58,049 nucleotides of DNA from Candidatus Woesearchaeota archaeon (GTDB lineage Archaea; Nanobdellota; Nanobdellia; Woesearchaeales; UBA10216): the NCBI GenBank assembly GCA_016192915.1, contig JACPTF010000015.1, positions 1 through 58,049 of the forward strand, given 5' to 3'. The position numbers and the translations under genes were made by a program. Below the pieces are notes generated by a model. The model was not told the DNA's origin and did not search any database. It was given only the letters and a program-made list of their open reading frames with translations. Shown in pieces: positions 14,984 through 57,101 of this stretch; the stretch's first letter is position 1; the number at the start of each line of letters is the position of its first letter.

Positions 14984-15088
14984 GCACAATTCCGCTGCAA
15001 GCGGAATGTGCTATCGACCTCGGGTCGATACGCATCGGCTGCTGCCGATGCTGAATCGGACTTTGTCCGATTTGCAGCTGTTGCAGCT
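14984..15088. repeat. array of five back-to-back hairpins
   Basis: Almost every base is paired. H1 14984-15011 (arms GCAC+A+ATTCCGC and GCGGAAT+GTGC, with one bulged A), H2 15012-15030 (TATCGACC/GGTCGATA), H3 15032-15051 (GCATCGGC/GCCGATGC), H4 15054-15072 (AATCGGAC/GTCCGATT), and a weaker H5 15076-15088 (AGCTG/CAGCT). Loops are three to five bases. The stems differ in sequence. The array touches the stop of the VIT1-type gene. Confidence 0.8.
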
Positions 15089-37489: not shown

Positions 37490-40321
37490 ATGAGAAAAGA
37501 GGTAACCATTTCTTACTCGGTAACAGCTTTAGTGGTTTTAGCAGCGATTGCCCTGTCTTTTAGCCTGCTGATGGTTGTTGTGCTTGCCCAGGAAGAAGAT
37601 GAACAAGAAGAACTGCTGGTTGAGGAGGAGATTGTCCCTGAGGAAAGCGCAGGCGTTACCCCCGACAGCCCACTTTACGTATTTGACAAGATTGTTGACG
37701 ACGTGCAGCTGGCACTGGCCCAAGGGGACGACAAAACAAGGAAAGCCCTTGAGATAAAGGAAGAAAGGCTAGCCGAAGCTTCGGTAATGGTGGACAAGAA
37801 AAAGCCGGACCAGGCAAAAAGCGCGCTTGAGCTCGCAACAAAGGCGGCAGGACAGGCGCAGAAGGAACTCTCGCCCGACCTTGAAAAAGAAACCAATGAA
37901 AATGTGAGAAGGGCTGCAAGGCTCCTGAGCGGCTTGGAAAAAAAGCTGTCTGACAAGGAATGGGAAGAAGCGAAGAAAGCGTTTGATGCCCAACTGAGCG
38001 AGGAGGAAAAAGTCAGGGTAGCGCTGCTTGTCTCAAAAAGCAGGCTCTCATACTGCGATTCCATCGCAAAGGAAGACTTTGACCTGATGAAGGGCGATGA
38101 TCTGTGCCAGATAGAAAAGGCTCCGGAATGGCTCAGGGGCAAGGTTGAAGGAGAGTTCAGGGCAAGGGAGGAAAATGCCAGAAAGCAGATACTGGACTCT
38201 GTGAGCACGTGCATAGTTGACCCGAAGAAGTGCGACTGCAGCCAGATACCGGTAGGGAAGCACAGCCAGACATGCGAAGTCAAAAAGGCGCTGGCGATAA
38301 GGTGCGAATACGAGAACGATAACGCAGCTTGTGCAGAGCTGGACTCTGAAAGCATTGAAGACTTCCTGCCGGAATTCATCGGCGAGGAAGGCAAGGAAAC
38401 ACTTCTGGAAGTATTAAGGAAAAAGGAAGATCAGATGTTTGAAAGGTTCAAGCCGCCAGAGTGCGAAAATGTGCAAACGTTCCAGGAATGCTTCGCTGTA
38501 ATGAAAGACCTCTACGGTACACCACCGGAATGCGAAGGCTTGAGCGATGACGAGTGCATGGAGCTCATGAAGAGCATGCCTCCGGAAACCGAAGAAGACA
38601 GAAAAAAACATTTCCCGACAGAATGCCAAGAAGCAGGAGTAACAAAGCCAATTGAGTGCGCAGAGCTCATGTTTAAAAAATACGGAAAGCCCCCACAGTG
38701 CGAAGGGCTTGACACAAGGGAATGCATGAAGCTTATGAGGCATGAAAGGCCTGATGCGATGCAAAATGCAATGCCGAAGGAGTGTCAGGATGCAGGAGCA
38801 ACCCAGCCAAGGCAGTGCTTCGACATAATGACTGCCAAATACGGCTTCCCGCCGGAATGCGAAGGGCTAAGCACTGACGATTGCTTTAAGGAAATGATGA
38901 AGCGGGGCCCTGGAGAAGGGCCTCCAAGTGGCATGATGGGGCAGGAGCCGCCGGAATGCATTGAAAAGGGAGCCAAGGGCAAAGACTGCTTCTTGTTAAT
39001 GATGGAGCTTTACGGAACCCCACCCGAGTGCGAAGGATTGAGCACTGACGATTGCTTTAAGGAAATGATGAAAAGACCTCCACAAGGTGGAGGAGGGGAA
39101 TGTGTAGGGTTAAGCCCTGAAGAGTGCAGGGCAAAAATGCAGGAACGACACGGGCTGCCGCCGGAATGCGCGCAGAATCCTGAGCAGTGCCAGCACGCGT
39201 TTGAAGGCAGGGGAGTGCCTGGAGGGATGCCTGCAGAATGCGCGGGCCTTGAGAGGAAACAATGCGAGCGGGTAATGATGCAAAAGTTTGGGCCTCCTGA
39301 ATGCAAAGAAGTCAGCAGCAGGGAAGAGTGCGAGGCAATAATGAAGGAGAAATATGGTTCGGAAGGCGGCTTTGGAGGAGGCCCTGGCGGAGGTCCGGGC
39401 CCACGCGGTGAAGGCGGATTCGAATCTGGAGGATTTGGAGGAACAGGCGGACAAGGCGGTTTCAGGAATGAGTGCGAAGGGCTGTCAAGAGAGGAATGCG
39501 AGGGAAAAATGTTTGAAAAGTACGCGCCTCCAGAATGCAGAGGGATGTCAAGGGAGGAGTGCGACACGACAATGAGGGAAAGGTTCGAGCAGCATGAGCA
39601 GCAGGGAGAAAGAAGCGGAGAAGGGTCTGAGGGGGGATTCGGAGGAGGCTTTGAGGACCGCGGCAGGTCAGGCATGCCGCAAGAATGCCAAGGGCTCAGC
39701 ACGGAAGAATGCAGAAGCAAGTTCTTTGAAGGCAAAGGGCAAGGCGACATAAGAGGCGAGGGCGAAAGGCGCGAAATGCCGCCGGGCTTTGAAGGCGAAC
39801 ACCGCGAAGGCAGCCGCGAACAGTTCACAGGAGAGTTCCCAAGGGAAGGAGGAGAGGCAGGCAAAGGAGTGCCGCCGTCAGGATTACCGGCAGACAGGCA
39901 AGGACTAGGATCCAGGCGAACAGAAAGGGCCCCGCTGGGAGAGCCGGTAAGCGGAGAACAGCACCAGCAGCAGCCATACCCGTCAGGCGACTACCCCTCA
40001 GGCTCGTACCCAAAACCGGAAGGAGTGTACCCGAGGGACTATCCGCAAGCATCAGGAAGTTATCCTGAGAAGGATTATCCGCAGCCAAGCAGCAGCGGAA
40101 GTTACCCAAGCGGCTCATACCCCAGCAGTTCTGGCTCATACCCCTCAGGCAGCGGCGATGGCGGAAGCGGCGGAGGTTCTTATCCCGGCAGCGGAAGCGG
40201 CACTAGTGACAGTGGAAGCTCAAGCGGCAGCGGTGGAGGCGGCTCAGGCGGCGAGCAAAGCACCGCGGCTACAATAACAGGACAGATAATCAAGGCGCTG
40301 AAGTGGATAGGCGGAAGATGA
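37490..40321 (+). CDS. giant secreted Cys-repeat protein with DUF5667-like N-terminus
   Basis: 943 residues. A signal/anchor helix (8-30), then GVTPDSPLYVFDKIVDDVQLAL and a long charged helical hairpin as in DUF5667. From about residue 320 there are ten or so modules of about 45 residues built on PPECEGLS..EC..MM...YG with paired cysteines. The C-terminal 180 residues are Gly, Ser, Tyr and Pro-rich (repeated SGSYP) and end in ATITGQIIKALKWIGGR. Probably a disulfide-linked surface fibre or matrix protein. Confidence 0.7.
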   Translation: MRKEVTISYSVTALVVLAAIALSFSLLMVVVLAQEEDEQEELLVEEEIVPEESAGVTPDSPLYVFDKIVDDVQLALAQGDDKTRKALEIKEERLAEASVMVDKKKPDQAKSALELATKAAGQAQKELSPDLEKETNENVRRAARLLSGLEKKLSDKEWEEAKKAFDAQLSEEEKVRVALLVSKSRLSYCDSIAKEDFDLMKGDDLCQIEKAPEWLRGKVEGEFRAREENARKQILDSVSTCIVDPKKCDCSQIPVGKHSQTCEVKKALAIRCEYENDNAACAELDSESIEDFLPEFIGEEGKETLLEVLRKKEDQMFERFKPPECENVQTFQECFAVMKDLYGTPPECEGLSDDECMELMKSMPPETEEDRKKHFPTECQEAGVTKPIECAELMFKKYGKPPQCEGLDTRECMKLMRHERPDAMQNAMPKECQDAGATQPRQCFDIMTAKYGFPPECEGLSTDDCFKEMMKRGPGEGPPSGMMGQEPPECIEKGAKGKDCFLLMMELYGTPPECEGLSTDDCFKEMMKRPPQGGGGECVGLSPEECRAKMQERHGLPPECAQNPEQCQHAFEGRGVPGGMPAECAGLERKQCERVMMQKFGPPECKEVSSREECEAIMKEKYGSEGGFGGGPGGGPGPRGEGGFESGGFGGTGGQGGFRNECEGLSREECEGKMFEKYAPPECRGMSREECDTTMRERFEQHEQQGERSGEGSEGGFGGGFEDRGRSGMPQECQGLSTEECRSKFFEGKGQGDIRGEGERREMPPGFEGEHREGSREQFTGEFPREGGEAGKGVPPSGLPADRQGLGSRRTERAPLGEPVSGEQHQQQPYPSGDYPSGSYPKPEGVYPRDYPQASGSYPEKDYPQPSSSGSYPSGSYPSSSGSYPSGSGDGGSGGGSYPGSGSGTSDSGSSSGSGGGGSGGEQSTAATITGQIIKALKWIGGR

Positions 40322-40737: not shown

Positions 40738-41442
40738 ATGAAAACGCTGGCGATAGGCGCGGAAGCCGTTGTATACGCGGATGACAGCAGAAAGGCGGTA
40801 ATCAAGCAGCGGCAGCCAAAGAAATACCGCGCCAAAGAGCTGGATGAAAAGCTGCGGCTTCACCGGATGCGAAGGGAGGCAAAGGTAATTGAATCGCTGC
40901 GGCAGCTTGGAATTCCAGTTCCAAAGCTCATGGAGGTTGACGAGAAGACGGCAACGATAACGATGCAGCTCGTTGAAGGGCAAAAAGTAAAGGATATTTT
41001 AAGCAGCGGTAATCATATCAGCATCTGCGGGGAAATCGGGAAGTACGTTGGAATGATGCACAGCAGCAACACAGTACACGGCGACTTAACTACGTCAAAC
41101 ATGATTCGCAGCAGCGATAAGGGCACAAATCGGGATGCACCCGATTGTGCATTCGGCCAAATGCCGAATTGCACTGCTGCGCCCTTATCAACCCTTGGCA
41201 GCGGCAATAAAGTCTACTTCATTGACTTCGGGCTCAGCTTATTTTCGAACAAGGACGAGGACAAGGCTGTTGACCTGCACCTCTTCAGGCAGGCGCTCAG
41301 CAGCAGCCACAGCAAAATAGCTGAAAAATGTTTCGCTGTTGCAATAGCGGCTTACAAAGAAGCCAATAGCAGCGGCTGGAAGGCAGTTCTAAATAGGCTT
41401 GAAAAAGTAGAGGGAAGGGGAAGGAACAAGGGAAAAGGTTGA
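40738..41442 (+). CDS. bud32: Bud32/PRPK-type kinase of the KEOPS complex, with in-frame insertion
   Basis: 234 residues. Atypical small kinase/ATPase needed for t6A tRNA modification by KEOPS. N-lobe IGAEAVVYADDSRKAVIKQRQPKKYR with the catalytic Lys, then the loop HGDLTTSNMI and VYFIDFGLS, and DKAVDLHLFRQAL. Between the HGD loop and DFG sits a 29-residue insert, Cys-containing, absent from relatives and encoded by a palindromic element at 41117-41203. Whether the protein carries the insert or the mRNA is spliced cannot be seen. Confidence 0.92.
   Translation: MKTLAIGAEAVVYADDSRKAVIKQRQPKKYRAKELDEKLRLHRMRREAKVIESLRQLGIPVPKLMEVDEKTATITMQLVEGQKVKDILSSGNHISICGEIGKYVGMMHSSNTVHGDLTTSNMIRSSDKGTNRDAPDCAFGQMPNCTAAPLSTLGSGNKVYFIDFGLSLFSNKDEDKAVDLHLFRQALSSSHSKIAEKCFAVAIAAYKEANSSGWKAVLNRLEKVEGRGRNKGKG
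41117..41203. mobile_element. 87-bp palindromic mini-element inside bud32
   Basis: Bounded by a 6-base direct repeat GCAGCG (41111-41116 and 41198-41203). Inverted ends GATAAGGGC (41116-41124) and GCCCTTATC (41181-41189), followed by AACCCT. Inside lie two hairpins (41123-41174) with GCAC/GTGC clamps and bulged A/T. The length is exactly 29 codons and the frame is kept. The 15-base end GCCCTTATCAACCCT recurs four times at 56987-57101. Confidence 0.85.
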
Positions 41443-49948: not shown

Positions 49949-50036
49949 CATGACCCCTTTGCGAACCCAAGTCGAGCATAGCTCGACTGGGCCCAGTCGC
50001 AACAGCGACTTGGGAGCGGTCAATCGGAAAACGAAA
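49949..50036. mobile_element. nested hairpin element (GACC hairpin with inserted hairpin pair)
   Basis: Outer arms TGACCCCTTTGCGAA (49951-49965) and AGCGGTCA (50015-50022), followed by ATCGGAAAACGAAAA as in the copy at 55180. Between the arms lies a 49-base hairpin pair, 49966-50014, with CCCA/TGGG clamps, one bulged A in the first hairpin and one bulged T in the second. Confidence 0.75.
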
Positions 50037-56874: not shown

Positions 56875-56970
56875 TTTGCCTGTCACTCGGCTTTTTGCAG
56901 GCGCCACTTAAATATTTTGCTATTTAGCGTTTTGAAATTTTGTTTGTTTTTGTTTATTCCAGTAGTAGCA

Positions 56971-57101
56971 ATAAGGGCAGTAGCCTGCCCTTATCAACCC
57001 TCGCTTGAAGGCAACAGGACAAGGCCCTTATCAACCCTCGCTTGAAGGCAACAGGACAAGGCCCTTATCAACCCTACGGAAGCGGCGCCCTTATCAACCC
57101 T
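56971..57101. repeat. hairpin plus 37-bp tandem repeats
   Basis: Starts with a perfect 10-bp hairpin (ATAAGGGCAG/CTGCCCTTAT, 56971-56994). Two exact 37-base units follow at 56987-57023 and 57024-57060, each beginning GCCCTTATCAACCCT. Two more copies of that 15-mer lie at 57061 and 57087. The same 15-mer closes the insertion in bud32. Confidence 0.85.

Follow-up and report, generated by a model that had tools for sequence, protein, structure and literature searches.

The window, by which we mean the whole 58,049-nt stretch of DNA analysed here, forms part of a 1.2-Mb assembly and encodes the KEOPS kinase Bud32, with the reading frame of the kinase remaining open straight across an 87-nt insert (Table 1). 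The product runs from HGDLTTSNMIRSS through the insert to GNKVYFIDFGL, and removal of the segment restores an ordinary Bud32, as stated in a preliminary description of this locus, which had proposed an 87-base segment bounded by GCAGCG with inverted ends and two internal hairpins, all of which are found among the computed repeat and hairpin positions. The ends of the insert are ambiguous owing to the 6-nt direct repeat. Its inverted ends span 41116–41127 and 41178–41189 (12 nt, 92% complementary), and its strand has a more stable predicted fold than any of 200 shuffles (z = −3.6). This structure lies beyond chance, since the same DNA is found elsewhere in the genome, with a 76-nt stretch at C20:7117 matching at 97% identity (E = 2e-31), in addition to partial copies. 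The preliminary description had also placed the insert in the catalytic loop; it does lie between HGDLTTSNMI and the DFG strand, but occupies the turn after the loop rather than the loop itself, namely the β7–β8 turn, six residues beyond Asn121, with the DFG motif at residues 163–165. Most of the kinase core of the Bud32 AlphaFold model has pLDDT values above 90, with residues 129–155 falling below 50, and the insert is accordingly modelled as a disordered loop hanging off an intact kinase. The gene upstream of Bud32 (window positions 37490–40321) encodes a protein of 943 residues that combines a DUF5667 domain with long repeats rich in Cys, Gly, and Ser.

Table 1. Features of the Bud32 insert and further element copies in the window.
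Feature	Position	Strand	Remarks
Bud32 (KEOPS kinase), insert host	40738..41442	+	ORF; Pfam RIO1/Kdo/Pkinase; PDB KEOPS/Bud32 by sequence and fold
87-nt in-frame insert	41117..41203 (= 41111-41197)	+	relatives without insert have a 10-11 residue turn
GCAGCG direct repeat, left	41111..41116	+	
GCAGCG direct repeat, right	41198..41203	+	87 nt from left copy
Element A left arm (G)ATAAGGGC	41116..41124	+	
Element B, 48-nt (16-codon) two-hairpin cassette in A loop	41125..41172	+	covariance model match 41123-41174
B hairpin 1 (AATCGGG/CCCGATT)	41128..41146	+	
B hairpin 2 (ATTCGGC/GCCGAAT)	41151..41169	+	
Element A right arm and tail GCCCTTATCAACCCT	41181..41195	+	14 perfect copies in own genome
Further B copy	14984..15035	-	47.4 bits
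Further, more diverged B copy	49965..50015	+	30.1 bits
Second A locus	56970..57101	+	A hairpin, then tandem 37-nt units carrying the A tail; apparently intergenic

The nearest named relatives of this genome are Woesearchaeota, and the genus was represented by eight genomes including our own, with every genome compared being a metagenome assembly. An alignment of Bud32 from relatives, as suggested in the preliminary description, reveals four with an empty site (G002, G003, G004, and G007) and a fifth, G001, in which the same turn carries a 29-nt A core without B (NSNKGSARPYQPSP); no Bud32 match was obtained in the remaining two of the eight genus members, G005 and G006. Loop length at this position thus differs among relatives and, with four empty sites and the shorter G001 copy, the insert is not a conserved feature of Bud32. 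Two species therefore hold different fillings at one site (A with B in our genome, A in G001). A comparable situation is seen in Hel308, where our genome holds A and B plus more and G004 a short A; the further insertion after the B cassette of our Hel308 led us to leave this gene out of exact boundary calls. Of the two Hel308-like genes of G004 (loci L173 and L182), one carries an A insert, whereas in the other the A site is empty and a B insert lies close by.

The insert in Bud32 is a composite, with one palindrome, element B, nested in the loop of another, element A. The consensus of A is a hairpin of the form GC-AATAAGGGC-(variable tip)-GCCCTTATCAACCCT, the copies of which were catalogued by retrieving the surroundings of pattern matches; A measures ~30–37 nt alone, with a catalogue range of about 30–81 nt. 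The 15-base right end is found 15 times in our genome when one mismatch is allowed (14 of these being perfect) and at 3–19 places in six of the seven other genus members, so that A is present in seven of the eight genomes, compared with 0–2 isolated matches per genome outside the genus. The reversed A pattern, used as a control, gave no match in any of the eight. Most copies, including those within genes, have GC directly after them on the side that adjoins tRNA genes (see below), with the adjoining GC of the Kae1 copy being host sequence. The preliminary description would have been refuted had other copies in the genome not shared the flanking repeat and inverted ends; it largely withstands this check, in that the inverted ends are common to many copies, although the GCAGCG repeat is not general. 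Flanking duplications of the elements measure 6 nt in Bud32 and in the isoleucyl-tRNA synthetase IleRS, ~3 nt in Kae1, and 11 nt in one Hel308, with none obvious at tRNAs. End repeats at element sites average 4.7 nt against 3.9 nt for shuffled pairing, a slight excess that stems partly from tandem copies. A target-site duplication of fixed length was not seen, with the lengths differing between sites (3–11 nt). At locus L122 (1474–1511) an A copy seems to provide the stop codon (CAA TAA) of an upstream open frame, and A insertions may also reset gene ends. A separate locus of G007 (L108, 1451–1600) carries three to four tandem A-derived units within a 390-residue opposite-strand open frame, giving the repeated peptide VDKGGSAATAFVASG.

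Element B is found in either orientation inside A (locus L086 compared with L098, L115, and L132) and also alone. In an alignment of 16 copies its stems are paired in 97–99% of cells, with compensatory changes at 11 pairs, and the covariation score was reached by none of 500 shuffles. The resulting covariance model gives 95 matches in our genome (E ≤ 0.001, both strands counted) and 11–72 in each of the seven other genus genomes, placing B in all eight; G002, which has no A match, nevertheless holds 27 B matches. Across 41 loci, mostly from outside the genus, the model gave no match.

Approximately 20 A copies lie directly upstream of tRNA genes, with A ending at position −1 and the tRNA starting with GC at +1. 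The A/tRNA +1 junction of locus L204 is placed with the Rfam tRNA boundary, some of the intron-bearing tRNAs at such junctions were recognised by eye, and an Rfam scan of the tested intergenic loci returned tRNAs only. We take GC to be the target and attribute the precise placement at tRNAs to target choice plus selection. These junctions could also be viewed as a trace of RNA, with the 5′ leader of a pre-tRNA, freed by RNase P with the 3′ end ...CCCTTATT, being copied or joined into DNA beside GC. Such a route would suit the ~20 copies that end exactly at tRNA +1, as well as the genic copies, which have the same end, with the Kae1 segment beside the host GGC being exactly that leader. However, B moves too, without such leader geometry, and DNA insertion at GC together with selection against broken tRNA promoters would give the same pattern at tRNAs. 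Spread of A via RNA is therefore considered unlikely, and it is similarly improbable that A originated as a tRNA 5′ leader and became a parasite mobilised through RNA, reinserting at tRNA genes and in frame in protein genes; a leader origin, if true, would make A a SINE-like retro-element in an archaeon.

Movement of A and B as palindromic elements that are translated where they enter genes is the reading best suited to their copies in host proteins, the identities of which were confirmed by Pfam. In our genome A lies in frame in Bud32, Kae1, IleRS, ValRS (in the opposite orientation), Hel308, a DHH-family protein, and an NFACT-R protein, and in relatives it lies in frame in RtcA, a thioredoxin-reductase-like protein, Elp3, a polyprenyl synthase, ThiF, signal peptidase II, a mannosyltransferase, MatE, and others. 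Element B lies in frame in SufS, ABCE1, GatA, a radical SAM protein, a phosphodiesterase, and Hel308, and also near the end of S19e. Comparison with empty orthologs gives an insert of exactly 33 nt after the host GGC in Kae1 and of 36 nt with CGACAA at both ends in IleRS, and the B copies of ABCE1 and SufS each correspond to a clean 16-residue gap against PDB structures 3bk7 and 5xt5 respectively. The A-encoded peptide NKGTAAPLSTL is common to IleRS, Kae1, and others. Two species share the B-encoded peptide HNSATSGMCNRTSSDL in SufS, and a third has a near-identical version of it in a protein resembling a DNA glycosylase (named by eye).

Where an element is bordered directly on both sides by 80 or more open codons, the flanks share one frame with no intervening stop in 12 of 14 A copies and 17 of 24 B copies, where chance would give at most one third; the "other frame" cases are partly artefacts, with the in-frame Kae1 copy assigned to a spurious long opposite-strand frame. 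The length of B is constrained likewise, with all 23 coding copies measuring 52 nt by the model, compared with frame-shifting lengths (48, 50, 51, or 53 nt, against 52) in 20 of the 69 other copies. The hypergeometric probability of no frame-shifting length among the 23 is ~0.001 by hand calculation. These constraints on frame and length point to ordinary translation, since neither splicing nor bypass would need them, and copies of A and B within genes are thus probably translated with their hosts.

The same constraints bear on the intron offered as an alternative by the preliminary description, in which the tRNA-splicing endonuclease would cut the insert from the mRNA at a bulge-helix-bulge (BHB), followed by ligation of the exons. 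Removal of the segment does give an ordinary Bud32, and the machinery is probably present given the many tRNA introns of the genus. However, no BHB flanks the 87-nt segment, and in each of six loci scanned BHB-like arrangements are about as frequent as in shuffled sequence or rarer. Splicing would also work without an insert that is frame-neutral and stop-free, yet both properties are preserved in coding copies, including the uniform length of B. With the other inserts also in frame, stop-free, and frame-neutral in length, and no excising BHB, we regard this alternative as very unlikely. Translational bypassing, in which ribosomes hop across a hairpin as in phage T4 gene 60 and the mitochondrial byps, finds some encouragement in the stable hairpins within these coding sequences. 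Bypassing does not require the skipped segment to be in frame or free of stops, however, and the retention of both properties in many genes and in both orientations (e.g. in ValRS) argues for ordinary translation, leaving bypassing highly improbable. That the insert is an ordinary lineage-specific loop, as the varying loop length of Bud32 among relatives might suggest, or an assembly artefact, is refuted by the dispersed copies, the same DNA being found at unrelated sites and in seven (A) or eight (B) of the eight genus genomes, and has next to no probability left.

The insert is very probably a non-autonomous mobile palindromic element, A carrying a nested B, and would be transcribed and translated together with the gene that contains it. 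The other alternative of the preliminary description, a mobile insert tolerated by an essential kinase, is strongly supported in this respect by the empty sites, the many copies with the same ends, and the in-frame copies in unrelated essential genes. Under the mechanism we propose, a putative trans-acting activity would mobilise the hairpin DNA (or RNA), and A would insert beside a GC dinucleotide. Both elements are open in several frames and of frame-neutral length in genes, so that copies at surface turns of essential proteins could survive as flexible loops of 10–30 residues; frame-breaking copies would be lost by selection, with in-frame ones persisting, and the insert is probably neutral to, or tolerated by, its host protein. 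Outside genes, copies would last mainly as hairpins at tRNA 5′ ends or in tRNA introns. No element-linked transposase was noticed in a search covering the Y1 family, with no Y1 member in our genome, two in G002, and one in G004.

Rickettsia and Wolbachia are known to harbour protein-coding palindromes, with the units of the Rickettsia palindromic elements (RPE) measuring 100–150 nt. Like these, A and B are small palindromes of several families that lie in frame in many unrelated conserved genes and encode a conserved peptide, with some sites common to relatives and others not. RPE are in-frame palindromes in conserved genes, with the gmk case of R. conorii translated and active, and have copies in the genes for tmRNA and M1 RNA (PMC2229807), to which the A and B copies in tRNA leaders and introns would correspond. 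Different RPE groups may also occupy the same gene in different species (PMC3767692), much as A and A with B do in Bud32 and Hel308. The RPE are therefore probably the closest analogue of A and B, which would be their archaeal counterpart in form. A and B differ from RPE in having an archaeal host, in the way B nests within A, in inserting precisely at tRNA +1, and in their shorter units, with A (about 30–81 nt) and B (48 nt) both falling below the ~100–150 nt of an RPE; the shorter units and archaeal host are the reasons that we do not file them as RPE.

As far as searched, A and B appear confined to one Woesearchaeota genus and to be a separate archaeal invention. The open-access literature yielded nothing relevant on palindromic elements of Woesearchaeota or DPANN archaea, and the lack of earlier archaeal reports is provisional, as the literature covered was open-access. 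The same strategy in a small-genome DPANN archaeon suggests an independent origin. It further suggests that new loops of highly conserved enzymes can originate from very short hairpins (10–16 codons), and that such loops are tolerated by essential proteins of translation and tRNA modification, with the shared sites of different filling (Bud32, Hel308) and the exact tRNA junctions making movement of the elements testable.

Miniature inverted-repeat transposable elements (MITEs) are known in the archaea Sulfolobus, Halobacterium, and Haloquadratum, with frequent in-frame fusions singled out for Rickettsia (PMC10969869). A and B resemble MITEs in being short, multicopy, inverted-repeat elements without an encoded transposase, with terminal inverted repeats in A. 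They differ in their inconsistent target duplications, in that no parent transposon was noticed (Y1 family searched), and in their frequent in-frame fusion to conserved genes, which is unusual for MITEs except RPE. REP/BIME elements, which go with RAYT transposases, are likewise dispersed small hairpins with paired hairpin units; in contrast, A and B are frequent in coding sequence and have no apparent GTAG/CGTC tag in their consensus. Identity with REP/RAYT was rejected, the RAYT-type Y1 transposase being absent from our genome. Archaeal BHB introns share with A and B the hairpin-forming insert in a conserved gene, and tRNA introns are abundant in the same genus, whereas the A and B inserts are frame-neutral, open, and without a BHB motif.

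Several further observations concern the tRNA genes of this genus. Palindromes of B type or similar lie in tRNA introns or tRNA-adjacent stretches at loci L045 (1637–1755), L104, L121, L123, and L134, and elements of the A/B type seem to build up tRNA introns in the genus. Several tRNA genes (L017 1170–1420, L206, L021, and upstream in L191) appear interrupted in the T-loop by ~55 nt, which separate ...GGGTTCAAA from GTCCCGG..., possibly representing non-canonical introns overlooked by ordinary tRNA finders. At L196 and L197, and downstream in L194 and L202, tRNA genes lie between the inverted repeats GCGTTTGTGCAA...CACAAAACGC, which would extend the acceptor stem.
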